Below are positions 8,654 to 39,091 of a stretch of DNA of 64,000 nt, piece after piece. The notes beneath the pieces are model-generated. The model did not search any database, had not been told where the DNA came from, and saw only the letters and a program-made list of their open reading frames with translations. The stretch spans positions 769,214 to 833,213 of the forward strand of contig NZ_JAHKPY010000014.1 of assembly GCF_018860745.1 (NCBI RefSeq). The letters are read 5' to 3'. The translations under genes were made by a program, and so were the position numbers. The number at the start of each line of letters is the position of its first letter. The first letter of the stretch is position 1. The stretch comes from Zobellia uliginosa (lineage in GTDB: Bacteria; Bacteroidota; Bacteroidia; Flavobacteriales; Flavobacteriaceae).

Positions 8654-9733
8654 TTAGATTTTTGTTGAGGTTGTAGTGGTGCTTGTGTCTTCTGCTTTTT
8701 CTAAAGTAAAAGAGAATTCAGAACCTACGTCTATTTCACTTTCTACATATATCTTTTCTCCATGCGCCTCAACAATATGTTTTACAATGGCAAGGCCAAG
8801 ACCGGAACCACCTTCACTACGGCTTCCGCTTTTGTCCACACGGTAAAAACGTTCAAATAGGCGTGGTATATGTTGTTTGGGAATACCTTCGCCATTATCG
8901 GTTACCCTTACAATTACTTTGTTTTTAATCAGGTTTTCTACGCTTACCTCCGTGGTGCCATTGGTATGACCATATTTTATGGAGTTTACAAGAAAGTTGG
9001 TAAGTACCTGTTGTATTTTTTCTTTATCGGCAAAGACCATAATAGGCTCATCATACTCCATATCAAAAGTGAGTATGATTTTCTTTTTGGCCGATTTCAT
9101 TTCCAAGAGGTCAAAGACATTCTGAATAAGTTCAATAATATCAAAAGCTTCCTTCTTGAGGTTTAAGTCGCCTACCTCTAATTTGGTGATGAGGTCAAGA
9201 TCTTTCACGATATAGATAAGGCGGTCAACACCTTTGTTGGCACGTTGTAGGTACTTTTTACGAACGTTTTTATCGTCCATTGCACCATCTAGCAGTGTTT
9301 CTATGTAGCCCTGTACGGTAAAAAGAGGAGTTTTAAGCTCGTGCGATACGTTACCGAGGAAGTCTTTGCGGTATTCTTCCCTGATTTTAAGCGTGTCTAT
9401 TTCTACACGTTTGTCCTTGGCAAACTTCCCTATTTCTTCGGTTAGGGTTTTCATATCCGTTGTTATAGGCCCCGTAGTGATAGATGAGGTTTCCAACATG
9501 GCCACATCATCATATATTTTTTTTATACGACGGTAAATAAATCGCTCTATGCGTATTTGCATCACAATGAATGCTACAGGGAATAACAAAAGAGCAGAGA
9601 TGGTGACTATGATCCAATCAACTTTTCCCAAGAGATACAGGAACAAGACCAATAGCGAAATAAAAGTAAAGGTCACCATTAAGGAAGACCTTAACGCAAA
9701 GCGATATGACCTTCTTAGCTTAGCAGCAGCCAT
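8654..9733 (-). CDS. PhoR-like sensor histidine kinase
   Basis: 359-residue membrane kinase. Two hydrophobic helices (about residues 15-35 and 40-60) are joined by a very short loop (GKVDW), so there is no periplasmic sensor domain and no PAS domain. This suits sensing through a membrane partner, as PhoR does with the Pst system. The HisKA box FLGNVSHELKTPL carries the phospho-accepting His. The ATPase domain has the N box (NFLVNSIKYG), G1 DNGEGIP and G2 GGSGLGLAI. The cognate response regulator lies 111 bp upstream. Phosphate sensing is inferred from similarity and the phosphatase genes nearby; it is not proven by the sequence. Confidence 0.88.
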   Translation of the reverse strand: MAAAKLRRSYRFALRSSLMVTFTFISLLVLFLYLLGKVDWIIVTISALLLFPVAFIVMQIRIERFIYRRIKKIYDDVAMLETSSITTGPITTDMKTLTEEIGKFAKDKRVEIDTLKIREEYRKDFLGNVSHELKTPLFTVQGYIETLLDGAMDDKNVRKKYLQRANKGVDRLIYIVKDLDLITKLEVGDLNLKKEAFDIIELIQNVFDLLEMKSAKKKIILTFDMEYDEPIMVFADKEKIQQVLTNFLVNSIKYGHTNGTTEVSVENLIKNKVIVRVTDNGEGIPKQHIPRLFERFYRVDKSGSRSEGGSGLGLAIVKHIVEAHGEKIYVESEIDVGSEFSFTLEKAEDTSTTTTSTKI

Positions 9734-9844: not shown

Positions 9845-10531
9845 TTAAAGAACGAACTTGTAACCCACTCCCTTAACGGTCTTAAAATGGTCTTCACCAA
9901 TTTTCTCACGAAGTTTTCTTATATGGACATCAATGGTACGCCCACCAACAACTACCTCATTACCCCAAACCCGATCAAGAATGACCTCTCTTTTAAAAAC
10001 CTTACTTGGTTTTGAAGTAAGCAATGCTAGCAGTTCAAATTCTTTTCTTGGCAAGACAATTTCTTTCCCGTCGTTTACGATTTTGTACTCTTCTCTATTG
10101 ATGATGATATTACCAACCTGTACGATATCTTCCTGTTGCGCGTTATCTTCTTTAAGTCTTCTCAATAGGGCTTTTACCTTACTTACCAATACTTTTGGTC
10201 TTATGGGCTTAGTAATATAATCATCTGCACCAGCGTCAAAACCGGCTACTTGGGAATAATCTTCGCCACGAGCGGTAAGAAAGGTGATGATGGAACTTTC
10301 AAGTCCAGAAGTTGCGCGAATGGTCTCGCAGGCTTCAATACCATCCATTTCCGGCATCATAACATCTAAGATAATTAAGTGTGGTTGCTTTTTCTTGGCC
10401 ATGGCAACACCTTCTACTCCGTTTTTCGCAGTAAAGACCTGATAGCCTTCATTAGTAAGATTATAACCCACTATTTCTAGTATATCTGGCTCATCGTCAA
10501 CAAGTAATATCTTAATGTCTTTCTTTTTCAT
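9845..10531 (-). CDS. OmpR/PhoB-family response regulator
   Basis: 228-residue DNA-binding regulator. The receiver domain has the acidic pair Asp12-Asp13, phospho-acceptor Asp56 in LIILDVMMPEMDG, the switch Thr and Lys in ITKPIRP. The C-terminal winged helix (about residues 130-228) contains the recognition region GGRTIDVHIRKLREKIG. It precedes the PhoR-like kinase and is divergent from the TonB-dependent receptor gene, so the 178-bp region between could be controlled by the regulator on both sides. PhoB is the most likely identity by position and similarity; another OmpR-type role is possible. Confidence 0.9.
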   Translation of the reverse strand: MKKKDIKILLVDDEPDILEIVGYNLTNEGYQVFTAKNGVEGVAMAKKKQPHLIILDVMMPEMDGIEACETIRATSGLESSIITFLTARGEDYSQVAGFDAGADDYITKPIRPKVLVSKVKALLRRLKEDNAQQEDIVQVGNIIINREEYKIVNDGKEIVLPRKEFELLALLTSKPSKVFKREVILDRVWGNEVVVGGRTIDVHIRKLREKIGEDHFKTVKGVGYKFVL

Positions 10532-10593: not shown

Positions 10594-10620
10594 TAACGTT
10601 GATTTAATATAGTAACGTTA
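10594..10620. promoter_or_regulatory. Direct repeat of TAACGTT between regulator and TonB receptor genes
   Basis: TAACGTT occurs at 10594-10600 and again at 10613-10619, a 19-bp step, just upstream of the predicted promoter of the response regulator. Related copies (GACGTTA and GGCGTTA) lie at 10679-10685 and 10691-10697, close to the TonB receptor start. A response regulator dimer binding site is plausible. No experimental site is known to me. Confidence 0.3.
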
Positions 10621-10709
10621 ACCTAACCTTATTGCAATAAAGGTTTAACATACGCGTAACTCGACTTTTACTTCACGTGACGTTATTTGCGGCGTTATAA
10701 AACTAGATA

Positions 10710-15721: not shown

Positions 15722-16825
15722 CTAAACTTTTATATAAATCTTCTTTTTGTCCAGCCATAGACCAAGGCTCCAGCAAAATAACATAAAGACTATAGCAAAG
15801 GCAAAGGAGCCAAAGTAAGGACCAATCCAACTAAATCCTTTTTGATAAACATAACTGAATAGGCTTTGCTCACCATCAACACGAATAAAATGCATACCTA
15901 TAGCTACGTATTCGGAGAGCAAATAAATGAATAATGGGTTTTTTCCAAAGATTTCAAAGAAGTTATAGTTAATCGGTTTTTTTACAAATTCTATAGTATA
16001 AATTAAGATGGATAATACCACAATGTCAAGGCCAACGGTAAGTACTACAAAAGAACTGCTCCATAGTTTCTTGTTTACCGGAAAACCAAGGTCCCACAAA
16101 TAGGCAATGACTAGTAGACCCGCTCCTGCAAGTAACATCTTGGCAAGTTTTTCATAATTTATTCCTCCATCTATAATATACTTTCCTATGAGATAACCGC
16201 CCAGAACATTGCAAATAGAAGGTAAGGTACTCAATAGGCCTTCAGGGTCAAAAGGAATGCCGTTCCCCATATATAGATGGCTGTCACCAAGAATAAGACG
16301 GTCTACGGTTCTGGCAAAGTTTCCTTCTAAGGTGTAGTCTCCAAAGGCACTTAGTATGCCCCAATATCCTAAAAGTATTACCACAGACGCTATAATCAGT
16401 TGCTTGTTGGTTAAAAAGTATATCATCACCGCACCAATAAAATAACATAAAGCTATGCGCTGGAGTACCCCAAGAATGCGTGTTTCACTAAACGGTACGG
16501 CAGCAAGGTCACCGGTTTCTGTCCAAGAGACAAATGGAATCCAATACATGGTATATCCCAGTAGGAATATGATTAAAGTCCGTTTTGCTATTTTTTTAAA
16601 GACTTCGGATAAAGGCTTGTCCACCCATTTTGCCTTTACAAAAGCAAAGGCATTGCCAACCGCAAAGAGGAAAGAAGGAAAAACCAAATCGGTAGGGGTA
16701 AAGCCATGCCATTTGGCATGTAAAAGAGGTGAAAAGGTAGAGCTCCAGTCGCCAGGGGTATTAACAATAATCATTAGGCATACGGTTAATCCCCGGAATA
16801 CATCGAGCGCTTTAAATCTTTTCAT
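15722..16825 (-). CDS. Multi-pass membrane acyltransferase, COG4299 / DUF5009 (HGSNAT-like)
   Basis: 367-residue integral membrane protein with about ten helices. The N-terminal block RFKALDVFRGLTVCLMI and the HGFTPTDLVFP segment with its conserved His and Asp match the COG4299 family. This family includes heparan-alpha-glucosaminide N-acetyltransferase, which moves acetyl groups from cytoplasmic acetyl-CoA to glycans across a membrane; bacterial members sit in many carbohydrate clusters. It starts 12 bp after the phosphatase gene and so is in its operon. The acceptor is unknown. Acetylation of a sugar released in the periplasm is a reasonable guess. Confidence 0.82.
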   Translation of the reverse strand: MKRFKALDVFRGLTVCLMIIVNTPGDWSSTFSPLLHAKWHGFTPTDLVFPSFLFAVGNAFAFVKAKWVDKPLSEVFKKIAKRTLIIFLLGYTMYWIPFVSWTETGDLAAVPFSETRILGVLQRIALCYFIGAVMIYFLTNKQLIIASVVILLGYWGILSAFGDYTLEGNFARTVDRLILGDSHLYMGNGIPFDPEGLLSTLPSICNVLGGYLIGKYIIDGGINYEKLAKMLLAGAGLLVIAYLWDLGFPVNKKLWSSSFVVLTVGLDIVVLSILIYTIEFVKKPINYNFFEIFGKNPLFIYLLSEYVAIGMHFIRVDGEQSLFSYVYQKGFSWIGPYFGSFAFAIVFMLFCWSLGLWLDKKKIYIKV

Positions 16826-16837
16826 GGTCGGTTACTT

Positions 16838-18646
16838 TTAGTTATCCCCTAAGTTAAGCGCTTTAATTATTTTTTCAAATACATCGCTGTTTTCGTAGGT
16901 GCCTTGAAAATATTGGGAACGGGGCCCATACGCAAATATCGGCACCATTGTGGCCGTATGATCATAGGTTGTAAAAGTTCCTTCAATAATACTTTCCTTT
17001 AAATTGCCCTGTGGAATGGAAAAACCTCCGGTTTCGTGATCCGCCGTAACTATTACTAAAGTATTTCCAGAAGTGTCTGCAAATTTTATAGCTTCGGTAA
17101 TGGCCTTGTCAAAGTCAATTCCTTCGGTAACTATACCACCAACGTTATTGCGGTGCCCGTTGCTATCTATTTGTGCCGCTTCTACCATTAAGAAAAATGG
17201 TGTGTTCTTGGAGTTTAAAAATTCAATGCCGTTTGTTGTTGCTTCGGCTAAGGCATTGCCCCTTCCGTTTAGTACGCCGGGTACACCTTCCACGGAAAGA
17301 AAATGTCCTAATTTATCAGCTGTATTAGCCCCAATCTCATTGATGTTTTTTACAAGGGTGAAATCTGTCTTTTTCCAATCGAATTCAAAATCTTCAGAAC
17401 CACCACCTACAAAAAGAGAAAGTTTACTTTTCAATAGGTCATTGGCAATAAGCTCCGTATCAGAACGGTCTTTTTGATGGGAGAAGAACGAGGCTGGTGT
17501 AGCTCCAGTAACATGGTCAGTAGTAATTACGCCCGAAACAAAATTGTGTTTGGAGAGAAATTCGGGCATGTTTTCAATGGGTTCTCTATTAGGATTTAAA
17601 CCAATAGCTCTATTGTAGGTCTTGGTGCCAGTAGCTAAAGCAGTACCTGCAGCAGCAGAATCTGTGGTAAAATCATCTGAAGATTGGGTTTTTATAAAAC
17701 CGATACTTTTTAGTTGAGATAGGGTCAACTCACCTTCGTTGGCCAAAACAGCCGATGAAATCTGGTTAAGGCCATTCCCATCTCCAATAAGGAATATCAC
17801 ATTCTTTATAGGCATGTCTTTTTGGTCCGTAGCATAGGTTGGCTTGTATACTTCCGATTTAATTTCATTTTTATAGGTGCGCTGTACCATTGTATTTACA
17901 TACGTAGTGGCCTTATGGGGCATATCGGTATTTATAATGTCTACGCCTAGATCAGAAAATGCTTTCCAGGCAGTTTTGGAATCTGGTGTGCCCCAAAAGC
18001 GGAAAGGTTTTTTTAGTGCATGTGCTTTTTTAATGGCTCCGGAGACTTTTTTATAGTCTTCCTCAGTAAGTCTGCCTTTTCCGTTCCATTCCGAAAAGTT
18101 TTTGAAGCTGACACTTACAAAAGCTACTTTTTGCCAATCATCAGAAGCTAGGTCACTTTCTAATTTTTGATGGTCAAAATAAATAAAGTGGGGATAGGAG
18201 TCATATGTTTTGGCATCAGGCCTGTGCCCGGAAATGACGATTTTTATATCGTGTCTAGAGGTGATTGTAGGATATTTTTTAAGAACTGCTAGTATCTTTT
18301 TTAACGTAGGTTCAGCATCTGATTTAATATCTAACATGAGCATAAGGCCGGATGGGTCGCCAATGTTGTTTTCTATGGCGTATTTTAAAGGCTCTAAGTA
18401 AAGGACCTGTAAGGTGTTGCCATCAATGATTTCAGCTTCGGTATGGGTGACATTTAGTTTTCCGTTCTTCAAAAAGACATCGGCCTCTATTATTTCTAGT
18501 CCGTTGGCATATGCCTTCCAAAACGGTACATTTTGTAGATAGTCATTATGCGAAAGAACCAGTATTTTTCGGTCTTTTTGTGCATTAAGTAAGGTGATGC
18601 AGAAAAGGGCGAATACAAAGGAATATTTTATTTTAAATCTATACAT
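16838..18646 (-). CDS. Bifunctional phospholipase C/GDPD-like and alkaline phosphatase fusion
   Basis: 602-residue exported protein (signal peptide MYRFKIKYSFVFALFCITLLNAQ). Residues about 25-265 form a PI-PLC/GDPD-type TIM barrel with HNDY, EADVF, THTE and WGTPDS motifs. Residues about 280-602 are an alkaline phosphatase: metal motif FLIGDGNG, nucleophile Ser in TTDSAAAGTALATG, ligands in EAAQIDSNGHRNN and TADHETGG. The pair could split a phosphodiester and then strip the phosphate. This fits a phosphate-scavenging role near the PhoBR-like genes. It follows susD after 79 bp that contain a hairpin, so it may be partly separated from that transcript. Confidence 0.88.
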   Translation of the reverse strand: MYRFKIKYSFVFALFCITLLNAQKDRKILVLSHNDYLQNVPFWKAYANGLEIIEADVFLKNGKLNVTHTEAEIIDGNTLQVLYLEPLKYAIENNIGDPSGLMLMLDIKSDAEPTLKKILAVLKKYPTITSRHDIKIVISGHRPDAKTYDSYPHFIYFDHQKLESDLASDDWQKVAFVSVSFKNFSEWNGKGRLTEEDYKKVSGAIKKAHALKKPFRFWGTPDSKTAWKAFSDLGVDIINTDMPHKATTYVNTMVQRTYKNEIKSEVYKPTYATDQKDMPIKNVIFLIGDGNGLNQISSAVLANEGELTLSQLKSIGFIKTQSSDDFTTDSAAAGTALATGTKTYNRAIGLNPNREPIENMPEFLSKHNFVSGVITTDHVTGATPASFFSHQKDRSDTELIANDLLKSKLSLFVGGGSEDFEFDWKKTDFTLVKNINEIGANTADKLGHFLSVEGVPGVLNGRGNALAEATTNGIEFLNSKNTPFFLMVEAAQIDSNGHRNNVGGIVTEGIDFDKAITEAIKFADTSGNTLVIVTADHETGGFSIPQGNLKESIIEGTFTTYDHTATMVPIFAYGPRSQYFQGTYENSDVFEKIIKALNLGDN

Positions 18647-18725: not shown

Positions 18726-20315
18726 CTACCACCCTTTATTTTGTGGAATTCCGGATGATTCAATTACTGTACTAGGTATTGGCCAAACGTGCATGTAGGA
18801 AGCATCAAAATTTCTAGCCGGCCAAACAATCTCTGAGGTGTACGGAGAGTCCGGGTTGGAACGATCTGTATAAATACGGCCGTATATTGGCTCAGCATAG
18901 GTAGCAGCGGCATCTCCCCAACGTACAAGATCAAAATGTCTGTTGGCAAATTCGCCGGCCAATTCTACTCGTCTTTCATGTTTTAAATCTTCCATAGTGG
19001 CATTGGTAATTGCAGGAAGACCCGCTCTTTCGCGAACCATATTCAATGGGACATCACCATTTTTTCCATCCATAATTAATGCTTCGGCTTTCATAAGTAA
19101 AACTTCCGCGTAGCGCATTAATGGAACATTGTATACTGTAGATGGGTCATCTCCATTACTGTTCAGATAAGTTCCGATAGGATTTTCGAACTGGAACTCA
19201 TACATGTATTTGTTGAATTGAAACCCGGATAAAGAGTTCTCCGATTGGTATCTTCGGTCTTCTCCGAAAAAGGTAAAGTCATCGCCAAAGTTTAAAATGG
19301 TAACCGCCTTTCTAGCATCATCTGCTTCAAACTCATTGTACAATCCTTCGGAAGGCGTATAATAGCCCCAGCCATTATATTTACCCCAACCCTTGTTCTC
19401 TAGCATAACACCGGTTAGAATGCTGCCTTTGTCCACTCCGGAGTTTACGGACCAAATATATTCGCTGGTCCAATTGTTTAAATGACTGTGAAGTTCTCGG
19501 TAATCTTGTGATGGATTGCCCGTGTTGATCAATGCTCTGCCAGACCCGCTGTTGGTAACGGCATCTGCATGTTTAACCACCTCGGCATATCTAGAAGCAT
19601 CATATTGTGCCCAGTATAAGTTGGTTTTGGCCATGTAGGCATAAGCAGCGTCTTTGTGCGGGCGACCGTAGTTTTCTGAAGAATAATCAGAAAATAGCGG
19701 TAGCAATTCGGCAGCTTTAATAAGATCTGCTTCTATCTGCTTGTAATTTTCAACAACACTGGCAGGTCTTGAGTAGCTGCCAGGCTCATCGTTCATGTTT
19801 TCTTCAGTAACAATAGGTACGCCTCCGTTATTTCCATCATCGCCATAAGTATGGGCTACCCAGAAATAACTGAAAGCACGCATAAAATAAGCTTCTCCTA
19901 AATATTGGTTTTTTAGGGTTTCGCTAATATCCATATTGGGTACATTTAGAATAACATCATTGGCACGACGTATTACTTTATAGCTATTGGGATAGCAAGT
20001 TGAGGTGTAACCGCCTTCGCCACCGGTGATATTAAAGTCTTTGATATTATCTGCAGAAGCTTTAATACGACCCGTAATCATATCGTCCGAAGCGTTAATG
20101 TACCAGAAGAAACCTCTAGAGAACATCTCTTGGTCGGTCATATAGGCGTACATACTGTTTACCGCTTCCGAGGCATCTTGCTCTGAGGTCCAAAAGTTAG
20201 CGTAAGATGTGCTTCCAAGCGGACTTACCTCTGTGAAATCGTCTGAGCATGTAATGAGGTTTAGACCTGCTAGACCTACTACCAAACTCATTGTTTTTAT
20301 TCTATTGAATTTCAT
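18726..20315 (-). CDS. SusD/RagB-family surface glycan-binding lipoprotein
   Basis: 529-residue outer-surface lipoprotein that lids its SusC transporter and captures ligand. The signal peptide ends at LITCSDD with lipidated Cys23 followed by acidic residues. The TPR-rich SusD core is seen in the AYFMRAFSYFWVAHTYGDDGNNGGVP block and the LLMKAEALI and MVRERAGLP blocks, and the C-terminus has the usual WPIPSTV...NKGW ending. It starts 18 bp after susC. The ligand is unknown, because no glycoside hydrolase or lyase lies in the operon; the downstream phosphodiesterase/phosphatase hints at a phosphorylated substrate. Confidence 0.95.
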   Translation of the reverse strand: MKFNRIKTMSLVVGLAGLNLITCSDDFTEVSPLGSTSYANFWTSEQDASEAVNSMYAYMTDQEMFSRGFFWYINASDDMITGRIKASADNIKDFNITGGEGGYTSTCYPNSYKVIRRANDVILNVPNMDISETLKNQYLGEAYFMRAFSYFWVAHTYGDDGNNGGVPIVTEENMNDEPGSYSRPASVVENYKQIEADLIKAAELLPLFSDYSSENYGRPHKDAAYAYMAKTNLYWAQYDASRYAEVVKHADAVTNSGSGRALINTGNPSQDYRELHSHLNNWTSEYIWSVNSGVDKGSILTGVMLENKGWGKYNGWGYYTPSEGLYNEFEADDARKAVTILNFGDDFTFFGEDRRYQSENSLSGFQFNKYMYEFQFENPIGTYLNSNGDDPSTVYNVPLMRYAEVLLMKAEALIMDGKNGDVPLNMVRERAGLPAITNATMEDLKHERRVELAGEFANRHFDLVRWGDAAATYAEPIYGRIYTDRSNPDSPYTSEIVWPARNFDASYMHVWPIPSTVIESSGIPQNKGW

Positions 20316-20333: not shown

Positions 20334-23300
20334 TTAGAGCGATAATGATAAACCTGCAGTGATGGTTCTTGATAATGGGTATCGTGCAACATCTAATCCT
20401 TTGCCACCAACCTCAGGGTCAATACCTGTATAATCCGTTATCGTAAATAGGTTTTCTGCTGAAATGTAGAAACGTAGAGATGAGCCTGGCAGTAGGGAAC
20501 GCATGATACTGTCGTCTATACTGTAGCCCAACGTAACGTTTTTCATTCTTAAATACGAAGCGTCTTCAAGATACCAGCTAGAGGCCAAACCAAAGTTCTG
20601 GTTGTCATCTTTAGTTGATAATCTAGGGGTTGTGGCACCGGCATTGGTAGTGGACCAAGCATTTAGCACTCTGTTGTCTAAATTGTAACCTGTTAATGAA
20701 GCGTTATAAGTAGAGAATTTATAGCCGTTGAAAACTTCAACTCCCGAAACTCCCTGGAACAGCATACCTAAATCAAAGTTCTTGTAATTGAGGTTCAAAC
20801 CGAAGTTATATGTGAAATCCGGTTGGTAGCTATCGTAGAACACCTTGTCATTGTCATCTATTTTTCCATCGTCATTGCTATCGGTAAATTTAAAATCTCC
20901 CGGTTGTGCATTCGGCTGAATTAAAGCGCCATCTTTTGTATGTGCATCTATTTCGGCCTGATTTTGGAAAATGCCCACTTGCGGCACTACGTAAACCGAA
21001 TATAGAGACCTACCAACTTCTGAACGATAGGGCCTTAATACACCTCTAACATTATCTGTATGAGCAATAAAATCTATACCACTTTTGTTGTAACCCTCAA
21101 GGTTTACCAGTTCATTATCTAGAACACTAGTATTGGCATTGACGGTAAAATCTAAATCACCGATTTTATTGGAATAACTGGCTGAGATTTCAAAACCATT
21201 ATTTTTAACTTCACCACCGTTTACATCGGCAGCACTGGTACCTTGGTTAAGATCTTCAAGACCAGGAAGAATCATTCCCTTGGTTGATTTTTCGAAATAA
21301 TCGAAAGTTAGGCTTAAGCTGTTGTTGAAAAGAGCTGCGTCCAGACCAAAGTTGATTGATTCAGATACTTCCCAATTTAAATCTGGGTTTGATTGTTTTC
21401 CAACATAAGCACCCTTTTCATCAAATGAAGCATCTTCGCCAATGGTCACTACCGTAGTGTTCAAAGGAACATCAAAAGAGTAATAGCCTACAGAATTGAT
21501 ATTACCTATTTGCCCCCATGAAGCCCTGAATTTTAAATCATTGATTGCAGTAACATTAAAGAACGATTCATCTGATAATCTCCAACCTACTGTAGCGGAA
21601 GGGAAGTTGTCCGCTTGGTTGTTTGTAGCCAAGCGAGAAGTCATATCCCTTCTGATACTGCCCGAAATAAAATAACGATTTTTGTAATTGTACATTACCC
21701 TTCCTATAGCGGATGTCAATGCATCTTCATACACTTGAGTACTAGGGTTCCGAATGACGGAGGCATTGGATAAATACTGATTAAATGCGTCTTCATTACT
21801 AAAACCTTCTCCTTTACTGGTTAGTTTTTCAAAATCAGTATGCTGAGAGGAATAGATGGCGGTAACATCAAGATTGTGGTCGCCAAATGACTTCTTGTAG
21901 CTTAGCTGATTGTCCCATACCCATCGGTTGGTTGTTGCGTTGCTCTGCTCCAGATAGTTGTTAGGGTTAGAACGCCCCAGCTCGGGTACTTTTGGCTGAA
22001 ATCTTTTGTATTCAGAATTTGTATAGCTATAGGAATACGTTGTTTTGAAAGACAGACCACTGGCAATATCATACTCTAAAAAGACATTGGCATTTAAAAA
22101 GTTGGTGGGCGCAGTAGTTGTAGGTCTCAATAACAAGGCCAAAGGGTTATAAACATCCCCATACGCTCCGGCAAATTGTGATAAGTTTTCTGGTGCTACA
22201 CCTGCAAAACTACCATCTGCATAACGTGTTGGAGAAGCAGAAGGCATATAAATTGCGTTTATAATAGTACCAGAATATGGGTTGTCTGTATTGGTACCTA
22301 CAGCTTCGGTTCTTGAGAAATAAACGTTTTCGCCTATTTTAATTTTATCCGAAAGGTCAAAATCAGATTTCACTCTAAAATTGTAACGATCAGAACTTGT
22401 CCCTTCTAGAAGGCCATCTCTTTTAGTATATCCAAAAGAGGTTAGGTAATTCATGCTTTCACCTGCACCACTAATATTTACATTGGCGTTGTTGATGCCC
22501 GCAGGTCTAAAAATAGCATCTACCCAGTTGGTTCGGTTTACTTGCCCGTAAGGATTCTGTTCCGCATCGTGAGCAGATTGTCTTGGAGTTCCTGCGTTGT
22601 CAGCAGCCGTATTGTAAACTTGGGACTGTTGTTGTGCCGTTAGCGGTGTAGGTAGGTTTGTGGCTTCTTGAATACCGCCATAATAATCTACCGTTACGCG
22701 AGGCTTGCCTATTTCTCCTTTTTTGGTCTGTATTACGATAACTCCTGAAGCGGCTTGTGCTCCATAGATTGCAGCAGATGCGGCATCTTTCAACACGGAT
22801 ACCGAAGCAATATCATTAGGATTGATGGCTGGACCATAATAAGGAACACCATCTACTATGGTAAGTGGACTTTCGTTAGCGAAAGTTCCTAGTCCACGAA
22901 TAACGACATTACCACTAGAGGTGGGGTCACCGCCTTGTGATAATACGGTTACACCGGCCACATTACCTTGTAAGAACTCGGTAACGTTAGACACCGGCCT
23001 AGAAGCAATGCTTTCTACATTGTTGACCGTGGCAATAGCTGTAGTTAAGTCGCCTTTTCTGGAGGAGCCGTAGCCTATAAGAACTACTTCATCTAGAAAG
23101 CTAGCCTCTTCGCTCAGAGATACGTTTAAGGTTTCTTCTCCAGTGAAGGCTACTTCTTTCGTAGCAAAGCCCAAAGAAGAAATTACGAGCGTTCCGTTTT
23201 CTTTGGATAGGTTCAATGAGAAATTGCCATCAAAATCTGTTGAGGTGCCTATTTGGGCATTTCCTTCTAATATAATTGATGCAGATGGAATAGGCATTCC

Positions 23301-23399
23301 GTCTATTTCGGAAACTACCGTTCCCTTTACTGTTACCTGCGAATAAGAAAAGGAAATACATCCTAATGCTATGAGCAGAGTTAAGTACACTTTTTTCAT
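20334..23399 (-). CDS. SusC/RagA-family TonB-linked outer-membrane transporter
   Basis: 1021-residue outer-membrane transporter. Signal peptide MKKVYLTLLIALGCISFSYSQ; CarboxypepD_reg-like domain about residues 22-105; plug with the SusC signature EVVLIGYG, VRGLGTFANESPLTIVDG and LKDAASAAIYGAQAASGVI; then the large barrel with the terminal AENLFTITDYTGIDPEVGG and LSLSL motifs. With SusD it imports oligomers by TonB-driven transport. It is preceded by the HTCS-like regulator on the same strand with a 179-bp gap that carries a promoter match and an inverted repeat. Confidence 0.95.
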   Translation of the reverse strand: MKKVYLTLLIALGCISFSYSQVTVKGTVVSEIDGMPIPSASIILEGNAQIGTSTDFDGNFSLNLSKENGTLVISSLGFATKEVAFTGEETLNVSLSEEASFLDEVVLIGYGSSRKGDLTTAIATVNNVESIASRPVSNVTEFLQGNVAGVTVLSQGGDPTSSGNVVIRGLGTFANESPLTIVDGVPYYGPAINPNDIASVSVLKDAASAAIYGAQAASGVIVIQTKKGEIGKPRVTVDYYGGIQEATNLPTPLTAQQQSQVYNTAADNAGTPRQSAHDAEQNPYGQVNRTNWVDAIFRPAGINNANVNISGAGESMNYLTSFGYTKRDGLLEGTSSDRYNFRVKSDFDLSDKIKIGENVYFSRTEAVGTNTDNPYSGTIINAIYMPSASPTRYADGSFAGVAPENLSQFAGAYGDVYNPLALLLRPTTTAPTNFLNANVFLEYDIASGLSFKTTYSYSYTNSEYKRFQPKVPELGRSNPNNYLEQSNATTNRWVWDNQLSYKKSFGDHNLDVTAIYSSQHTDFEKLTSKGEGFSNEDAFNQYLSNASVIRNPSTQVYEDALTSAIGRVMYNYKNRYFISGSIRRDMTSRLATNNQADNFPSATVGWRLSDESFFNVTAINDLKFRASWGQIGNINSVGYYSFDVPLNTTVVTIGEDASFDEKGAYVGKQSNPDLNWEVSESINFGLDAALFNNSLSLTFDYFEKSTKGMILPGLEDLNQGTSAADVNGGEVKNNGFEISASYSNKIGDLDFTVNANTSVLDNELVNLEGYNKSGIDFIAHTDNVRGVLRPYRSEVGRSLYSVYVVPQVGIFQNQAEIDAHTKDGALIQPNAQPGDFKFTDSNDDGKIDDNDKVFYDSYQPDFTYNFGLNLNYKNFDLGMLFQGVSGVEVFNGYKFSTYNASLTGYNLDNRVLNAWSTTNAGATTPRLSTKDDNQNFGLASSWYLEDASYLRMKNVTLGYSIDDSIMRSLLPGSSLRFYISAENLFTITDYTGIDPEVGGKGLDVARYPLSRTITAGLSLSL

Positions 23400-23430: not shown

Positions 23431-23438
23431 CAAAAGTA
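23431..23438 (-). promoter_or_regulatory. Predicted -7 box of susC
   Basis: Minus strand TACTTTTG, exact match to TAnnTTTG, 31 bp before the susC start codon. The -33 element is weak (TTC at the right spacing instead of TTG), which would fit a promoter needing an activator. Confidence 0.5.
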
Positions 23439-23491
23439 GACGGAGGCACTGTTGAACTAGATGAAAAAGGAATCAGAAAGGTGTAATTATG

Positions 23492-23511
23492 ACTCAAAAG
23501 AGGGGGTGAGT
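23492..23511. promoter_or_regulatory. Inverted repeat ACTCA-N10-TGAGT upstream of susC
   Basis: Perfect 5-bp arms at 23492-23496 and 23507-23511. They lie about 55 to 75 bp upstream of the predicted -7 box, a position suited to an activator. The right half, with neighbouring bases, gives the 10-mer AACTCACCCC on the minus strand (23512-23503), which also occurs upstream of the regulator gene. Confidence 0.35.
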
Positions 23512-23578
23512 TGTTTCTTTTTGGTGCACTTTTGTTACAATAATTCTAGCGTAACCTTGTAATAATATCTAGATAACA

Positions 23579-26500
23579 TTAAACCTGTGCGATTTTGGTC
23601 CGATATTCTTTTGGGCTACGCTCAAAATTTTTCTTGAAAAGGCGACTAAAATATTTTGGATCGTTAAAACCGCATTCCATACTTATCTCAGATATGTTTA
23701 AGGAGTGATTTTTGAGTAGATATTCTGCTTTTTGCAAACGCAGATTTATAATCACGTCAGAAGGAGACTGTTGCAATACTTCTTTAAAAGCTCTATAGCA
23801 TTTGATCTTGGATACAAAAAGCATTTCTTGTAGCTTCTGAACGTTAAAAGAGGGGTCGTTCAGATTTTCGTTAATGAGAGTAAGTGCTTTTTTTGCCAGT
23901 TTTTGGTTAATAGATAAATTCTCATTTTCGGAAAACGGAGTATCAAAGAAAACCTGTTTTGTTTTGCTGTTTACATATTCCCTTCTGGTAGATGTAAGTT
24001 TCGTTAGCTTATTTAGGATAAAAGATTTACTTATGGGCAACTGAATAAAGGCGTCTACGCCCAGTTCTGTAGTTTGAATGCGTAGTACATGGTCTATGTC
24101 TTCCGATACATAGATTATAGGAAGGGAAATTTGCTTTGTGTTGTTCTTTATTATATGGAACAGTTGTAATAATTGTTCGTCTATGGCAGTGTTATAAAGA
24201 ACCAAACAATGTATGTCTATATGATTAATGGCTGAGGCAATTGCCCCTGCCGTACGCTCAAAAACGAGATTATTTTCATTATCATCAAACAATTGTAGTG
24301 CGGGTAAATAATCATTATCGGTGCAAAAAACAAGTATGTTATTCTTGTCGGATGGTAGTTTTTGATTAAGATCGAGGTGCTTCCATAGTACCTCTTCTAT
24401 TTTATTATTTTCAGTATCTACCACATTAACGGGTAGATTCACGGAAATTGTGAGGTTGTTGTTATTGCTGACGGAAATACTCCCGTTCATTGCTGTAAGT
24501 AGGGTATTGGCAGCTTTGTAATACGGGCTGTAATGCTGTATGCTAAAAAAATTATCAGTAATAACCTTGCTATCGGATTCAATAAGAAGTTCTAAAGACT
24601 CGCCTTTTGTTCGGACGCCCACTTTTAAATAACTGTTTTTGGAAATGTACTTGAGAATGTCGTTAAAAAGATATTTGAAAAACAGCTTAAAGCGCAGGGA
24701 GTCTAACTCAACCCATTGGTCTTCTATATTTATGGAATAATCCAAGTTTACTTTTGATTTCTTAGCATGCACTGAGAGTCCGTCAACAAGTATTTTTATC
24801 GTCTGTTTTATTTTGGTGGCCGATTTTTTGAGTTTCCCTATATCTTTTGAATTGGTAAGATAATCCCATTCGGAAAGCAACGTGATCAACTTGCTGGATT
24901 CATTATTGATATTATGTTTTACCAACTCGTGTTCGGTCAGTTCTTTTGAACTTTCTATAATTTTAGAGACCGGTTCTTTAAACTCCGATAGGACAAAGGT
25001 TTTGAACTTTTCAATTTCAAAATCTTCATTTTTAAGTTGGTGATAAGAGTTTAGGAGCTCTTCCCTTTGTCGGTTTATTTCCTTGTTTTTTTCGTCTAAG
25101 GTATGATTTACCTTAATTAAGCGTTCTTTTTGCCGATTTATGGTTTCGGTTCTTTCTTCTATTTTAAGTTCTAGTTTTTTCTGGTTTTTTGCGATATTCC
25201 GGTTTCTGAACAAAACCCATAAAGTAAAGGCTAAAAGAGAGGTGACCAACAATAGAAGATAAAACCATGTGGTTTTATAAAATGGTTTTTTAATGATTAT
25301 AGGTATGCTTTTAAAGGCTATGTCTTTGGCAAGGGAGTTTCTTACTTCAAAAACATATTCTCCGTCTGGCAAGTCTGTATAATGCACTAGGTCTCCCGTG
25401 AAAGTTTGAAAATCGGTATCAAAACCTACTAGTTTGTAAAGCACCTTATTGTTTGGGTCATCGGTAAATACCACTGGTTCAATTTTTACATCAATTGAAT
25501 TGTTGTTGTAGTTCTTGGTGATACCAGTAGAAAAATCGTTAGTATTATCAATATGGACTTTTAGTTTAGGGAGTTCTTTGGTAATGTTCAAGGTAGCGGG
25601 CGAGAAGTGATTTAGTCCATTTATTCCGGCAAAGAACATAGTGCCCTTTCGATCTTGATAATAGGCACCTTCAGAGAATTCCCTAGCTTGCCATCCTTCA
25701 TCCATGTTCAAAGACGTTACTGAAAAATTATTTCTGTCAACCACGGCTATACCTTTAGTAGTACTCACCCAGACCTTGTCACTGTCTAAAAGCAGCCCAT
25801 AAACCATGTGGCTCGGTAAGCCTTCTTTTTCTGTAATGTTATGGATAAGCTGGTCCTTTTTATCATAGATGCTAATACCCCCAAGGCTTGCAATCCAATA
25901 GTATCCAGATTGTTTGTCCTTAAATGAAGAATAGATACTGTTGCCCAAAACACCATCTTTTACAGTAATATTTTTTAGAGCTCCGGTTAAGGTATTCAAG
26001 ATAAGTAGACCTTCGTTTTCGGTACTGATCAAGAGTTCGTCAGTATCATATTCTATGTTTCTAATTTTGTAGGGCTTCAATTTTTCTTGCCCTTTGAAAA
26101 ATTGAAATCGGTTTGTTTTTAAGTTGAACTTGGCCGCTCCGCCCCAACAAGCTATCCAAAGGTTGTTTTGGTTATCTTCTTGAAAAGAATAGTTCCTATC
26201 ATTGGGGAGTTCTGCAATGTTTTTTGATTCGTAAAGCTCGTAACGTCCATTTTTTATTCGAATAATACCAGCATAGGTACCTACCCAAATCTCTCCTGCT
26301 TTTGTAGTGTATAGTGATCGAATACGTTCCCAATCTGAATTTATAATCGCTTCGCGAATGTTGTATTTAACAAAACATTTTTTTTCTTGGTCAAAATATA
26401 AGATACCTTTTGTGTAATAGCCCAACCAGATACGGTTGTCAAAATCTGTGGTAATCGCGCGTATAGTTTCGTTGGGTAGATGGGGGAATTTGTTGGGGTG

Positions 26501-27295
26501 TGGTATAATGGTGGTAACCTTATCAGAACCGGTATAGGCCATGCTTAATCCACCATCTTTATGACCAAGCCAAATGTTTCCAAAATCGTCTTCGTATATT
26601 CTTTCTACTTCATCGCTATTAAAGCTGTGAGGGTCATATAGGTCATGAAAGTAATGATCTATTTGTTCGTTGTCACGGTTGTTCGTAGTATTAGGAATGA
26701 TATAAACCCCGTTACGCCTTGTGGCATACCAGATATGTCCTGATTTATCTTTAAAAACGTCATTGATAATAGTATTGGGGTATTTATTGAGCAAAATTCC
26801 TTGGAGTATGCTCTCATCTTCTTTTTTTTCTTCAAAAAACTCGGACTCCACGAATTTACCTTCTACAAATTCATAGTTGGTCCTGCCGGTTTTTATCCCA
26901 ATAGTACCATTTTGGGTAAGCACTAAATATTGGGGTGTATCATTAAAAGTAAAATTTTGAAAATTATTGTCGCCAATATATTTGCTTACTTTTTTGTCTT
27001 TGGTGAGTATCCAAATGTTGCCCTTTTTATCTTTTTTTAATCGCTCTATATTGTTGCCGGCTATAGAATTGGAGGTTTTCAAATCATGTTTGTAAACGGT
27101 AAACGTATTTCCGTTATAGCTGTTTAATCCGTCCCATGTGGCAATCCATAATACGCCATCGTTATCGCTAATAATATCGGTAATAGAGTTGTTTGATAGT
27201 CCATCGTTTGTGCTAAGCGTTTTAAATTTTATATTCTGTCCAGAGATAAAGTTGCTGAAGAGCAGTATTAAAAAAATAAAAAATAGCGGTCTCAT
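23579..27295 (-). CDS. HTCS-like membrane regulator with degenerate kinase and receiver, AraC output
   Basis: 1238 residues from ATG 27295, chosen over a start at 27346 because it begins a proper signal peptide (MRPLFFIFLILLF). Order: periplasmic Reg_prop two-bladed-propeller repeats (about 20-610), Y_Y_Y domain (about 610-670), one membrane helix (about 678-698), long coiled coil, HisKA-like helix pair (about 760-840), ATPase-like region, receiver-like domain (about 983-1095), AraC HTH (about 1138-1235). Key residues are gone: the HisKA box reads VLSEFKEPV with no His, no G1 box or glycine-rich loops are visible, and the receiver strand reads LVLYNTAID with Asn for Asp. The susCD genes downstream are the likely target. 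Confidence 0.85.
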   Translation of the reverse strand: MRPLFFIFLILLFSNFISGQNIKFKTLSTNDGLSNNSITDIISDNDGVLWIATWDGLNSYNGNTFTVYKHDLKTSNSIAGNNIERLKKDKKGNIWILTKDKKVSKYIGDNNFQNFTFNDTPQYLVLTQNGTIGIKTGRTNYEFVEGKFVESEFFEEKKEDESILQGILLNKYPNTIINDVFKDKSGHIWYATRRNGVYIIPNTTNNRDNEQIDHYFHDLYDPHSFNSDEVERIYEDDFGNIWLGHKDGGLSMAYTGSDKVTTIIPHPNKFPHLPNETIRAITTDFDNRIWLGYYTKGILYFDQEKKCFVKYNIREAIINSDWERIRSLYTTKAGEIWVGTYAGIIRIKNGRYELYESKNIAELPNDRNYSFQEDNQNNLWIACWGGAAKFNLKTNRFQFFKGQEKLKPYKIRNIEYDTDELLISTENEGLLILNTLTGALKNITVKDGVLGNSIYSSFKDKQSGYYWIASLGGISIYDKKDQLIHNITEKEGLPSHMVYGLLLDSDKVWVSTTKGIAVVDRNNFSVTSLNMDEGWQAREFSEGAYYQDRKGTMFFAGINGLNHFSPATLNITKELPKLKVHIDNTNDFSTGITKNYNNNSIDVKIEPVVFTDDPNNKVLYKLVGFDTDFQTFTGDLVHYTDLPDGEYVFEVRNSLAKDIAFKSIPIIIKKPFYKTTWFYLLLLVTSLLAFTLWVLFRNRNIAKNQKKLELKIEERTETINRQKERLIKVNHTLDEKNKEINRQREELLNSYHQLKNEDFEIEKFKTFVLSEFKEPVSKIIESSKELTEHELVKHNINNESSKLITLLSEWDYLTNSKDIGKLKKSATKIKQTIKILVDGLSVHAKKSKVNLDYSINIEDQWVELDSLRFKLFFKYLFNDILKYISKNSYLKVGVRTKGESLELLIESDSKVITDNFFSIQHYSPYYKAANTLLTAMNGSISVSNNNNLTISVNLPVNVVDTENNKIEEVLWKHLDLNQKLPSDKNNILVFCTDNDYLPALQLFDDNENNLVFERTAGAIASAINHIDIHCLVLYNTAIDEQLLQLFHIIKNNTKQISLPIIYVSEDIDHVLRIQTTELGVDAFIQLPISKSFILNKLTKLTSTRREYVNSKTKQVFFDTPFSENENLSINQKLAKKALTLINENLNDPSFNVQKLQEMLFVSKIKCYRAFKEVLQQSPSDVIINLRLQKAEYLLKNHSLNISEISMECGFNDPKYFSRLFKKNFERSPKEYRTKIAQV

Positions 27296-33692: not shown

Positions 33693-35277
33693 TTATTCCG
33701 GTTTATTGTGGGTTGGCGCTTTTTGCAAATTAGGTGTTTTTCTGTGTTTTGTTCCTTGTTCGTAAGAATATGCCAAGCCTATTAATATGGGTTCATCATA
33801 CATTTTACCCAAGAATTGAAGTCCAGCTGGTAAGTTTTTGGCCGTAAAACCCATAGGTACCGTAAAGGCAGGCTGGCCAGTATGCGGACTAATTATCTGG
33901 TTATTGTCTCCTAAATATTCCTCTTGAAAACGGTCAATTCTTGCAGGGGGATTGTTCCAAGAAGGGTACACTATGGCATCTAGGTTTAAGGAATCCATTA
34001 CATTTTCTATAGCCTCGCGAAAAGCAACTCTACGAACATCCGAATACGCGTCCAAGCATGGAATTTCTGAGTCTTCCCATCTGCCTGTATGCTCGGCATT
34101 TCTTAGTAATCGTTCTTTTGCAAATTTAGAAGTACTACCTACTTTGATAATATCTTCTATGGTTTTTATAGAATCATTTTTTACGTAGTTGGCCAAAAAG
34201 CCCTCAACATCTTCCCGAAATGGAGCGCACCACTGGTTTTCTTTTAAACTAGCAAAATCAGGTACAACTATAGGGGCTACCACAGTAGCGCCAAGAGAAT
34301 CCATATCTAAAAGTGACTGTTCAAATAATCTTTTGATTTCCGGATTAGGGTTGTCATCACTTAACTCCCTAAGAACTCCAATTCTAGCGCCAACAAGAGC
34401 ATTACTGTCAAGGAACTGTGTATAGGTAAGGGGAATGTTTCCATTTGAGTTTTTGGTAAGGGGGTCATCCGCATCGTACCCTGCAATAATTTCTAATATT
34501 TTAGTAGCATCTTCAACGGTTCTGCCCATGGGCCCGACCACATCATTTCTCAAATATAGAGGAACAATGGCACTTCTGCTTATTAGGCCCAGAGTAAGTT
34601 CTAAACCCAACTAATGAGTTGTGCGAAGACGGTCCTCTTATGGAATTTCCGGTATCCGTTCCAAGACCGATAGTGCCAAAATTAGAGGCAATAGAAGCAG
34701 CTGTTCCTCCGCTTGATCCTGCTGGAACAAAATCTGTATTATAAGGGTTTCTTGTAGTTCCCGCAGTTGAGCTTTCTGTATGCATTGGGCTAAAGGCCCA
34801 CTCTGCCATGTTAGATTTGGCGATTACTATGGCACCCGCATCTACTAGTTTCTTTATAATAAAAGCGTCTTCTTTTGGTATGTAATCTTTTAAAGCTAAT
34901 GAGCCCGCCGTAGTTGGTAGTCCTGCCGTATTAATATTGTCCTTAACAATGATAGGAATTCCGTGTAAGGGTCGCAACAAGCCCGTTTCATTGTATTCCT
35001 TGTCAAGCGCTTCTGCAATTGCTATGGCTTTGGGGTTTGTAACTGTAATGGCATTTATGGTACCGTCAAAATTTTCAATCCGTTCCACATAGGCCTGTAC
35101 CAATTGTTTACTAGTAAAAGAGCCTTCTTGATAAGCTTTGTGAATGTTTGAAATGGTTAATTCGGACAGTTCTATCGTTATGTCATTTGTTGGCGCTTCT
35201 TTTTGGTCCTTACAACTAATAAATACAATGGTCAATAGTATAAGCAAGAATTTCTTTTTCGATTTGATCATATTCAA
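33693..35277 (-). pseudogene. Amidase-signature enzyme (lipoprotein) split by a single-base frameshift
   Basis: Two overlapping frames together make one amidase of about 527 residues. The N-terminal part (35277 to about 34600) has a lipoprotein signal (VFISCKDQ), the triad Lys in [11 protein letters not shown], and the Ser region [11 protein letters not shown]...[10 protein letters not shown]. The C-terminal part (about 34600 to 33693) continues with [24 protein letters not shown] and the usual ending. The frame breaks at 34596-34597, where one extra A on the plus strand changes ACTACT into ACTTACT on the coding strand; removing it restores [12 protein letters not shown]. Either a recent inactivation or a sequencing error. 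The rest of the gene shows no other damage. Confidence 0.9.
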
Positions 35278-38188: not shown

Positions 38189-39091
38189 CTAACCTTTCGC
38201 TTTTTGATAGTCCGTTAGCTTTTGGGGACCTTCCAGTAAGACACGTACTACACGAAGCGTGCCATCATCGGTGGTAGAGATTTGCCATTTTATCAGAGAG
38301 ATTTTTCCTTTCTCGATTTCAATACCGGTAATACTTCTTGGGTGAACGCAGCTACCATCGTTAAAAAAGGGGATATCTCCGGGTTCTGGAAAGCGCGGGC
38401 GGTGGGTATGCCCCACAATCGTAATCAGAAGGTTGTTTTTTAAAATCCACTTTTTAATGCGGCGCTCTACTTTTATAAGCTCTTTGTAGTTTTTTGCAGG
38501 ACTTGTAGGGTCTGCAATACCCCATACTTGAAGAGGTTTCCATAGTGCGCGTACCAAAAACCTGCTCCAGCGCCAAAAGGTATAATTCCACCAATCCCCT
38601 TGATGGCCGTGAGTAAGGAAGATTTCTTGTTGGGAACCCTTGTGTTTTAGCACAATGCCCTCATGATAGGTAATGCCTTCAAAGAGTTCTTTTGACTCCC
38701 CGTCTATAGGCTCAAAATAACTGCTTAGATTCTTTTTTACATATTCAGGATCTTTGTAGACCATATCGTGATTTCCCCATATCATGTGTAGCCTTTTACT
38801 TAAATGAAACTTTCGCAAAAGCTCGTAAACATTCTTGTGGGCCTCAAAAATGGATTCAAAAAAACGGTTTTCCCAAAGTTCATCACCATCACCTAATTCA
38901 CAGTAATCAAAACCTTCTTTATAGTAGAAATTAAGGGCGTGAAAGTAAATGTTACGGTTGTTTGCAAAGTCATCGGCAAAACTATTGTCGCCTCTATGGC
39001 AATCACTGAAGAGAATAAATTTCGATTCGTCGTCAAAAGGTACCATTTTGGCAGTTTGGTACGCTTTGGATAACCTAGTATTGGACGACAT
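38189..39091 (-). CDS. Calcineurin-like metallophosphoesterase (LpxH/YbbF-like)
   Basis: 300-residue enzyme with all five metal-binding motifs: SDCHRGD (D-x-H), GDGDELW (G-D), GNHD in MIWGNHDMVY, LTHGHQGD (H) and VGHTHRPRF (G-H-x-H). The arrangement is close to UDP-2,3-diacylglucosamine hydrolases and related phosphoesterases, but the catalytic Asp variant DGDELW and the extra WRWSRFLVRALW segment leave the substrate open. It has no signal peptide and is probably cytoplasmic. It is divergent from the GAF-domain gene, 115 bp apart, and the two could share the regulatory region at 39139-39168. Confidence 0.85.
   Translation of the reverse strand: MSSNTRLSKAYQTAKMVPFDDESKFILFSDCHRGDNSFADDFANNRNIYFHALNFYYKEGFDYCELGDGDELWENRFFESIFEAHKNVYELLRKFHLSKRLHMIWGNHDMVYKDPEYVKKNLSSYFEPIDGESKELFEGITYHEGIVLKHKGSQQEIFLTHGHQGDWWNYTFWRWSRFLVRALWKPLQVWGIADPTSPAKNYKELIKVERRIKKWILKNNLLITIVGHTHRPRFPEPGDIPFFNDGSCVHPRSITGIEIEKGKISLIKWQISTTDDGTLRVVRVLLEGPQKLTDYQKAKG

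Follow-up and report, generated by a model that had tools for sequence, protein, structure and literature searches.

The window analysed here, a 64,000-nucleotide stretch of DNA from Zobellia uliginosa, encodes a pseudo-HTCS regulator, termed REG (23579..27295, minus strand, 1238 aa; identified from its open reading frame, Pfam matches and orthologues), for which loss of the phosphorelay of hybrid two-component (HTCS) regulators is strongly supported. The REG clade is kept in at least 14 marine bacterial genera, and we consider it rather probable that its members are HTCS regulators that have shed phosphotransfer and act as one-component membrane transcription factors. Since the phosphorelay is lost yet REG is conserved across genera, we infer that the protein probably signals through a conformational change relayed directly to DNA, without ATP.

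Domain layout, catalytic sites and conservation

The REG frame runs uninterrupted from an ATG at 27295 to a TAA stop at 23579-23581, as the original prediction had held, and an alternative in-frame TTG start at 27346 would give a protein of 1255 aa; the numbering used here is from the ATG. The HTCS architecture of propeller/Y_Y_Y, transmembrane segment, HisKA-CA, receiver and AraC domain is present on one chain, all of it on the minus strand. The periplasmic sensor of two-component propeller repeats and Y_Y_Y (residues 20-670, 25286..27238; Pfam, and a PDB sequence match to 4a2l with E 3e-55) is followed by a transmembrane helix detected by hydropathy (residues 678-696, 25208..25264) and by a signalling helix or coiled coil placed by alignment and the modelled helix (residues 697-768, 24992..25207). 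Then come a pseudo-DHp (residues 757-835, 24791..25027), a pseudo-CA (ATPase) domain (residues 836-960, 24416..24790), a pseudo-receiver (residues 985-1112, 23960..24343) and an AraC-type DNA-binding domain identified by Pfam and alignment (residues 1129-1238, 23582..23911). Sensor, membrane helix and AraC domain were found intact, also as predicted. Pfam matches at E<=1 were to Reg_prop, Y_Y_Y (25.7 bits, slightly below the cut-off of 26.6) and AraC domains, the last of the HTH_18 and not the SusR type, and no match to HisKA, HATPase_c or Response_reg was found in REG at this threshold. Pfam sees the sensor and the AraC domain; the kinase and receiver folds were recognised only by profile-profile and structure comparison.

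Residues were compared between 25 REG members from 14 genera, which are not independent of one another, and seven intact HTCSs from REG's own genome, namely those of the ten homologues fetched that carry both a receiver and an AraC domain. As a Pfam control, HisKA, HATPase_c and Response_reg were all matched in 7/10 of these homologues, and the other three have HisKA and HATPase_c and lack a receiver or AraC domain. HisKA and HATPase_c were absent from the best 25 of the 39 Pfam families matched by 19 REG members, each family outside the best 25 matching at most one of the 19; Response_reg was weakly matched in two of the 19 (best E 0.0014).

Catalytic losses were present in 25/25 REG members versus 0/7 intact HTCSs, so the alignment with canonical HTCSs confirmed the predicted breakdown of the phosphorelay in every member. 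The phospho-His column holds Ser in 17 members and Ala in 8 (Ser770 in Zobellia REG, codon 24986-24988). The N-box Asn has become Asp or Glu in all 25 (D879 in Zobellia), S907, S909 and V911 stand in place of the G1 Asp and glycines in Zobellia, and the ATP lid and the G2 box with its glycines are deleted in 25/25. The ATP-binding N, G1 and G2 boxes and the lid are thus missing throughout, in agreement with the aberrant N box and missing G1 and G2 motifs noted originally. The original prediction picked the wrong residue in naming an Asn as the replacement of the phospho-accepting Asp; that column is Tyr in 25/25 (Tyr1034, codon 24194-24196), and Asn1035 lies one position further on, in a column that varies N/Q/D. 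The acidic pair of the receiver is C991 and T992 in Zobellia REG; the first position is C, S or G in all members and the second is still Asp or Glu in 13/25. The receiver Lys, rightly predicted to be lost, is Leu in 25/25 (L1086). A usable His elsewhere would have spoken against the loss, and no conserved His (at least 80%) was found at residues 700-1128 across the 25 members. Because the same positions are altered in every member, the second acidic position excepted, the changes are more than chance.

The kinase and receiver folds remain, as judged from models and profiles. REG shows profile-profile homology to the intact HTCS kinase-receiver core with 97% probability, and Foldseek recognised the kinase fold with 497 PDB matches at E<=0.001, the best 50 of which are histidine kinases or, as with phytochromes, proteins that include a kinase; the matches include DivL (4q20) and RetS (6dk7). 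AlphaFold modelled the receiver and AraC folds with a pLDDT of 86, receiver strand beta-3 ending at residue 1034. The signalling helix also appears in the model, but residues 757-769 at the H box have a pLDDT under 50, and, given a low pTM of 0.39 for the complete cytoplasmic part, we make no claim about how the domains are arranged relative to each other.

REG is under mostly purifying selection. Median dN/dS in Zobellia was 0.036-0.081 in each domain, even in the inactive kinase and receiver; dS was mostly saturated, and 7-21 of the 21 pairs gave finite values for the medians. The closest copies (L038 and L067), for which dS is low, gave higher values of 0.01-0.29 by domain. Open full-length copies, 43-81% identical, occur in 13 genera and in 4/6 cases in genus g127, and simple decay, doubted originally, is disfavoured on both counts. 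One match, in genome G376, was flagged with two in-frame stops yet contains an uninterrupted 1241-aa frame (L059), so the flagged stops presumably fall at the margins of the alignment. In two relatives, L094 and L096, the propeller is lost and the cytoplasmic part kept, in an open frame in L094 and with the gene split into two frames in L096; this loss would be odd if a periplasmic ligand were the sole input. In a tree that omitted these two relatives, the members sharing the losses grouped as a single clade against the seven outgroups used, long branches being flagged for two of the seven outgroup rows. A profile search confined to the REG family gave five matches in a draw of 395 phylum genomes, all in family f1, the share of the draw outside f1 not being given.

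The susCD-phosphatase locus and its candidate operators

On the minus strand beside REG lie susC, encoding a SusC/RagA TonB-linked porin (20334..23399; TIGR04056), susD (18726..20315; Pfam), a GDPD-like/alkaline phosphatase fusion of the PhoA1 type (16838..18646; PF00245 and PF13653) and a NagX-like membrane acyltransferase (15722..16825; BLAST E 1e-8), the last being found beside the phosphatase in Zobellia loci only. Both susCD and the fusion were present at 25/25 REG loci, and the fusion occurred in 16/16 genomes with REG versus 30/381 without it (Fisher p 7e-17, genomes treated as independent). The Zobellia genome G002 lacks any match to REG, and at its locus the retained phosphatase stands without susC and susD next to it. 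The juxtaposition of susCD with phosphomonoesterase/diesterase genes that defines PUS organophosphate loci is found at the REG loci. Because the fusion stands at every one of them, the locus is best read, from its gene content, as one of organophosphate rather than glycan scavenging. The role in glycan uptake assumed originally found no support, the conserved neighbour being a phosphodiesterase/alkaline-phosphatase fusion; a glycan PUL is disfavoured by the fusion at all 25 loci and by a Pfam scan of 18 window proteins that revealed no glycoside hydrolase.

A PhoB-like response regulator (9845..10531, minus strand; best NCBIfam match PhoB, below cut-off) and a PhoR-like histidine kinase (8654..9733, minus strand; best NCBIfam matches PnpS and PhoR, below cut-off) are encoded 13 kb from REG in the same window. 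Such genes adjoin the REG locus in four of the five other Zobellia loci fetched on that side (L181-L184), and the sequence fetched for the fifth (L185) showed no such pair.

Between REG and susC, three elements were noted on the minus strand. Four TTA boxes with an 11-bp period, forming a 22-bp direct repeat (23541..23577), are a candidate REG or PhoB operator upstream of susC. A second direct repeat of period 21 (TTTTGAGTC..TTTCTGATTC; 23470..23499) is a further candidate operator. The promoter-like TACTTTTG (23431..23438) fits by sequence what we take to be the Bacteroidota -7 element, TAnnTTTG. In a motif-free lag test of 14 intergenic regions, one per genus, self-similarity was highest at lags 21 (z 3.5) and 22 (z 3.6) of 29 tested, against a poorly calibrated null in which other lags reached -4.3. 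An average spacing of 21 bp is reported for predicted HTCS sites (PMC3878776). The 21-bp motif itself scored a z of 12.3, which is circular as the motif was taken from the sequences scored, so the lag test is the fairer measure.

At least three of the four TTA boxes were present in 23/25 REG loci. Among REG-less loci, with the count restricted to genes that have 80 bp or more of free upstream sequence, they were present at 3/24 SusC, 2/25 GDPD or GDPD-phosphatase and 6/79 other upstream regions. With two mismatches allowed, a genome search found 19 sites for the motif and 20 for its reversed control, a result at chance level for that stringency; the genome's sole zero-mismatch site precedes susC. 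The Zobellia genome yielded a single sub-threshold match for PstS and none for PhoX, so known Pho promoters are unusable as a yardstick. TTA-box-like 11-bp repeats conserved in the five Zobellia sequences compared also precede the phoB-like gene (10613..10649, minus strand), and because of this similarity the array before susC may belong to PhoB rather than REG. The distribution of the boxes points to REG, and the array at the phoB-like gene to PhoB.

Proposed signal transmission without phosphotransfer

The latch motif S/CHIP-DK, through which receiver and DNA-binding domain make contact, is dismantled in REG. Its Asp and Lys were retained in 0/25 members each and its His in 2/25, versus 6/7, 7/7 and 7/7, respectively, in the intact own-genome HTCSs; Asp is replaced by N or H and Lys by A, L, I or V in 25/25 (N1130 and A1169 in Zobellia). 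Substitutions in this motif are reported to give phosphorylation-independent DNA binding (PMC11253607). The distance from the membrane to the H box was 73-75 residues in all 24 members measured (of the 25, L096 was left out) versus 33-40 in the seven intact HTCSs, the membrane-to-kinase helix being about 38 residues longer.

Given the missing ATP site, the loss of two latch residues and the lengthened signalling helix, the direct mechanical signalling without ATP of the original prediction is the best-supported mechanism; its conformational step is one that we infer, and mechanisms with a partner protein compete with it. The steps may be depicted as follows: A dimer of the periplasmic propeller/Y_Y_Y part would bind a ligand, which is probably one of the phosphorylated compounds that the adjoining locus handles. 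The resulting change in dimer spacing or angle would travel along the transmembrane segment and then a rigid helix some 73 residues long to the pseudo-kinase, which would now serve as a dimerisation and lever module. The pseudo-receiver, devoid of phospho-site and latch residues, would relay the geometry to the two AraC domains, and these would regulate susCD and the GDPD-phosphatase fusion by binding the candidate operators in the REG-susC intergenic region, a direct repeat of about 21-22 bp. The most extended form of this scheme, put forward tentatively as slightly short of an even chance, is that an HTCS clade turned into ATP-free and phosphorylation-free one-component membrane transcription factors dedicated to organophosphate loci, the kinase becoming a dimer lever and the receiver a linker as the latch was dismantled and the helix lengthened, and that inputs from Pi starvation (PhoB) and substrate (pseudo-HTCS) join on one promoter.

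The constraint on the pseudo-kinase and pseudo-receiver, with their folds kept, means that they may bind a partner rather than be passive levers. REG could then be a phosphate-driven adaptor in trans, like DivL (PMC4211667), binding another two-component protein such as the PhoBR-like pair near the locus and reading its phosphorylation. This is unlikely, as with its AraC output on the same chain REG has no need of a step in trans, and the pair, looked for in Zobellia only, was not found beside L185. The loss of the latch Asp and Lys could also have left the AraC domain always bound, with control by the level of REG or by PhoB on the same promoter; deviations from the latch motif have been associated with phosphorylation-independent DNA binding and with repression (BT2391; PMC11253607), and the propeller-less L094 and L096, the latter with a split gene, are exceptions to sensor conservation. 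A large sensor under purifying selection would be needless for such a binder, which we regard as a shade less credible than the adaptor. The invariance of Tyr1034 (25/25), and a report of covalent Ser/Thr modification of a pseudo-receiver protein (PMC12632262), would suit cryptic chemistry, either as residual activity at Ser770 or Tyr1034 or as Ser/Thr/Tyr phosphorylation by an unrelated kinase; this is very improbable with Ser and Ala mixed in the phospho-His column, the lid and G2 box absent in all members and no conserved His. Decay into a pseudogene, to which the split frame of L096 and the propeller losses might point, is the least credible reading in view of the full-length conservation across genera and the low median dN/dS in Zobellia.

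Relation to known regulators

Relative to canonical HTCSs of the BT4663, BT4124 and BT1754 type, REG has the same order of Reg_prop/Y_Y_Y, TM, DHp, CA, REC and AraC, a homologous kinase-receiver core, an adjoining susCD and candidate 21-22 bp direct-repeat operators. It differs in lacking the phospho-His, N, G1, G2, ATP lid, phospho-Asp, first acidic residue and Lys, in the lost latch Asp and Lys, in the signalling helix longer by about 38 residues and in its linkage to the phosphatase fusion. SusR-like regulators, which span the membrane and are not known to use a phosphorelay, offer a working analogy for REG; their DNA-binding domain is other than AraC-type and they are not known to bear kinase or receiver remnants. 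A spacing of 67/77 bp is predicted for SusR-like operators (PMC3878776).

A phosphorylation-independent HTCS already has one published precedent, BT4236 of Bacteroides thetaiotaomicron, with Gln848 in place of the phospho-His, for which such a mechanism has been suggested (PMC11253607). BT4236 is reported with the His change and a CSIP-EK latch that keeps the Lys, which is lost in REG, the comparison with REG covering those two features. DivL, RetS and aspartate-less receivers resemble REG in having kinase or receiver folds that lack part of the catalytic residues, whereas REG unites pseudo-kinase, pseudo-receiver and an AraC output in a single membrane protein. The PUSII locus of Flavobacterium johnsoniae (PusCD2, PhoA1), induced by Pi depletion, likewise combines susCD with a PhoA bearing an extra PF13653 domain, but the regulator listed there is the FecR-like Fjoh_3252 and not a pseudo-HTCS (PMC8115612).

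In published samples the His was missing from 0.9% of HisKA domains and the Asp from 2.0% of receivers, and the switching of pseudo-receivers was called still a mystery (PMC12632262). REG combines these losses, each rare on its own, in one conserved and self-contained membrane regulator whose output is clear and whose putative target genes lie next to it. The shares of conformation and chemistry in HTCS signalling, a long-standing question, thereby become testable within one protein, and marine flavobacteria gain in REG a candidate regulator of organophosphate uptake.

Catalytic positions of the regulator

The gene of REG, the pseudo-HTCS (hybrid two-component system) regulator, runs on the minus strand as an open frame from the ATG at 27295 to the stop at 23579, and its product is 76-81% identical to full-length copies from other Zobellia genomes. 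The propeller sensor and the AraC domain, originally predicted to be intact, were both recognised by Pfam, and the Y_Y_Y domain scored 0.9 bits short of the cut-off. Between sensor and AraC domain neither a kinase nor a receiver domain was found by Pfam at E≤1. This gap is taken as real because HisKA, HATPase_c and Response_reg scored above cut-off in 7/7 intact HTCSs of the same genome.

These seven HTCSs were compared with 25 REG members: the window copy, six from other Zobellia, twelve from other genera and six from the further genus g127. Key catalytic positions were altered in every member (25/25). The phospho-His column contained Ser (n = 17) or Ala (n = 8), the N-box Asn column Asp (n = 23) or Glu (n = 2) and the G1 Asp column Ser (n = 22), Thr (n = 2) or Ala (n = 1), while the first G1 Gly was Ser and the G2 glycines were deleted in all 25. 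The losses of the phospho-His, the N box and the G1/G2 motifs in the original prediction thus extend to all members. In the receiver, the phospho-Asp column was Tyr and the Lys column Leu in 25/25, and the first acidic position was Cys (n = 14), Gly (n = 7) or Ser (n = 4). Loss of this Lys and of the phospho-Asp had also been predicted; both stood, but the Asn proposed as replacement for the Asp lies one residue downstream in the chain.

Fold, latch and signal transfer

On the models, the central region is kinase and receiver by fold, so that both folds appear to be kept. A REG-family profile (19 relatives, residues 757-1112) matched the core profile of intact HTCSs with a probability of 97% (E 9e-11) over 339 columns, nearly the whole length. 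Modelled by AlphaFold, residues 676-1238 (pLDDT 79, pTM 0.39) contained a helix of about 95 residues, which included the membrane part, entered the kinase region and had pLDDT <50 in its own final ~13 residues. Behind this helix came an ATPase-like domain of alpha/beta type, a receiver with (beta-alpha)5 topology and the helices of the AraC domain. The receiver-AraC model was better (pLDDT 86, pTM 0.63) and matched PhoB receivers and AraC domains structurally. For the kinase fold, Foldseek returned 497 matches at E≤0.001, and the 50 listed were all histidine kinases or kinase-bearing proteins. The membrane helix and the H box were separated by 73-75 residues in 24/24 measured REG members, compared to 33-40 in 7/7 intact HTCSs.

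For HTCSs, a ligand-driven movement of the sensor dimer has been proposed. In REG, a ligand would alter the sensor dimer, the change would travel as geometry along the long helix and then the pseudo-kinase dimer, and this geometry would reach the paired AraC domains. We regard this as the most likely mechanism and as moderately probable. RetS and DivL were among the 50 Foldseek matches listed. An alternative in which REG acts as DivL does, as an adaptor that senses the state of a second two-component protein, seems rather unlikely.

According to the available text of Gao, Wu and Stock, a latch made of S/CHIP in REC and an Asp and a Lys in the DNA domain holds unphosphorylated HTCSs off DNA, and substitutions in its motifs experimentally permit phosphorylation-independent DNA binding (PMC11253607). 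By the published spacing (Asp 39 residues ahead of Lys; PMC11253607), the latch Asp was located in 6/7 and the Lys in 7/7 intact HTCSs, whereas in REG members Asp was replaced by Asn/His and Lys by Ala, Leu, Ile or Val (each 25/25). Latch loss and the longer distance from membrane to H box fit a non-phosphorylated design. That REG binds DNA constitutively we hold to be slightly less likely than the adaptor.

The second receiver acidic position keeps Asp or Glu in 13/25 members, and the Thr switch residue is retained as Ser in 24/25. Within residues 700-1128 no His was conserved in ≥80% of the 25 members, so a replacement phospho-His of the usual type, which would have spoken against the original prediction, was not seen. 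Cryptic chemistry is very improbable.

Pseudo-kinases and pseudo-receivers are already known. For BT4236, an HTCS with Gln for His, a phosphorylation-independent mechanism has been suggested (PMC11253607, available text). The open-access literature, as far as it was covered, held no account of the REG clade, nor of an HTCS without both phospho-sites and the ATP lid.

Selection, origin and distribution

In line with the original prediction, REG does not look like a decaying gene: the median dN/dS of seven Zobellia copies, with dS often saturated, was 0.072 for the ATPase domain, 0.036 for linker and receiver and 0.081 for the sensor, and one very close pair (L038/L067) gave 0.01-0.29 by domain. 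Decay is hardly credible.

In a quick tree, kinase and receiver were omitted and the seven intact HTCSs from one genome served as the outgroup. A single branch with SH-aLRT 100 separated the 23 full-length members from these seven, consistent with a single origin.

REG was present in 7/9 Zobellia genomes and in 16/397 genomes of the family, spread over 13/237 genera. It was also found in 12/395 genomes of an order draw and 5/395 of a phylum draw, the outside-family share of these draws being unstated. The matches from all draws fall in one family, and REG is narrowly distributed in this sample. Two g127 genomes have lost the propeller at an identical junction, leaving an open frame of 625 aa in one (L094:8066-9940) and a split one of 132 + 466 aa in the other (L096:7993-9869); both retained the kinase and receiver substitutions.

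The locus and its phosphate context

REG is followed by susC (20334..23399), susD (18726..20315) and a PF13653 GDPD-like/alkaline phosphatase fusion (16838..18646), all on the minus strand, and this order was found in 25/25 loci. An extra gene of ~325 aa precedes the fusion in three g127 loci, and in Wenyingzhuangia marina (L157) the stretch from REG to the fusion also contains a GDPD gene and another pair of susCD. The g127 susC is only ~32% identical to that of Zobellia, yet REG and the phosphatase are present there. A NagX/HGSNAT-like membrane acyltransferase (15722-16825, minus strand) comes after the phosphatase in Zobellia loci.

The fusion occurred in 16/16 REG genomes but in 30/381 others of the family sample. 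Where checked (10 proteins from 6 loci), fusion loci without REG carry other regulators: ECF sigma with FecR (n = 4), FecR with its sigma neighbour unscanned (n = 1) and an adjacent LacI (n = 1). One Zobellia genome (G002) had no REG match genome-wide; its locus (L180) keeps the fusion and the NagX-like gene and lacks REG, susC and susD, as expected if REG serves susCD. In another (G005) neither REG nor the fusion was found.

The REG-susC gap (~180 bp in Zobellia, 81-183 bp across 25 loci) begins with TTA boxes spaced 11 bp (23541..23577), of which at least three of four were present in 23/25 loci, compared to 104/5000 shuffles. After them, self-similarity peaked at lags 21 (z 3.5) and 22 (z 3.6) among 29 lags in 14 one-per-genus sequences, though these z values are uncalibrated since some lags drop to -4.3. 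Predicted Bacteroides HTCS sites are direct repeats of mean 21 bp (PMC3878776, available text). Boxes and 21-22-bp repeat are each a candidate REG operator. The boxes were near background frequency in REG-less loci, yet resembled repeats ahead of the phoB-like gene (five Zobellia compared). In W. marina, near-identical 11-bp TTA arrays precede both susC genes (L157:5499, L157:10637).

A PhoBR-like pair, for which PhoB and PnpS/PhoR were the best-matching names although none reached its cut-off, lies ~13 kb from REG. Of five further Zobellia REG loci retrieved on the corresponding side, four have the pair next to the locus, and the stretch retrieved for the remaining one (L185) did not contain it. 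Less than 20 kb from REG there are two genes for calcineurin-like phosphoesterases (38189-39091, minus; 42791-46549, plus), the larger (1252 aa) with an additional C-terminal ShlB-like match. An amidase (33693-35277, minus) looks frameshifted, because two overlapping frames (305 aa matching the C-terminal part of PF01425, 244 aa matching its N-terminal part) stand here against a single frame of 515-525 aa in L039, L066 and L180.

The genome gave one PstS-family match, below cut-off, and no PhoX match, so phosphate uptake may rely on other systems. In the available text of Lidbury et al., PusCD2 and PhoA1 (PF00245 plus PF13653) of F. johnsoniae are induced upon Pi depletion (PMC8115612); that locus resembles the REG loci in its susCD and phosphatase but differs in its regulator, FecR. 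From its gene content and this published counterpart, the REG locus is read as one for organophosphate scavenging.
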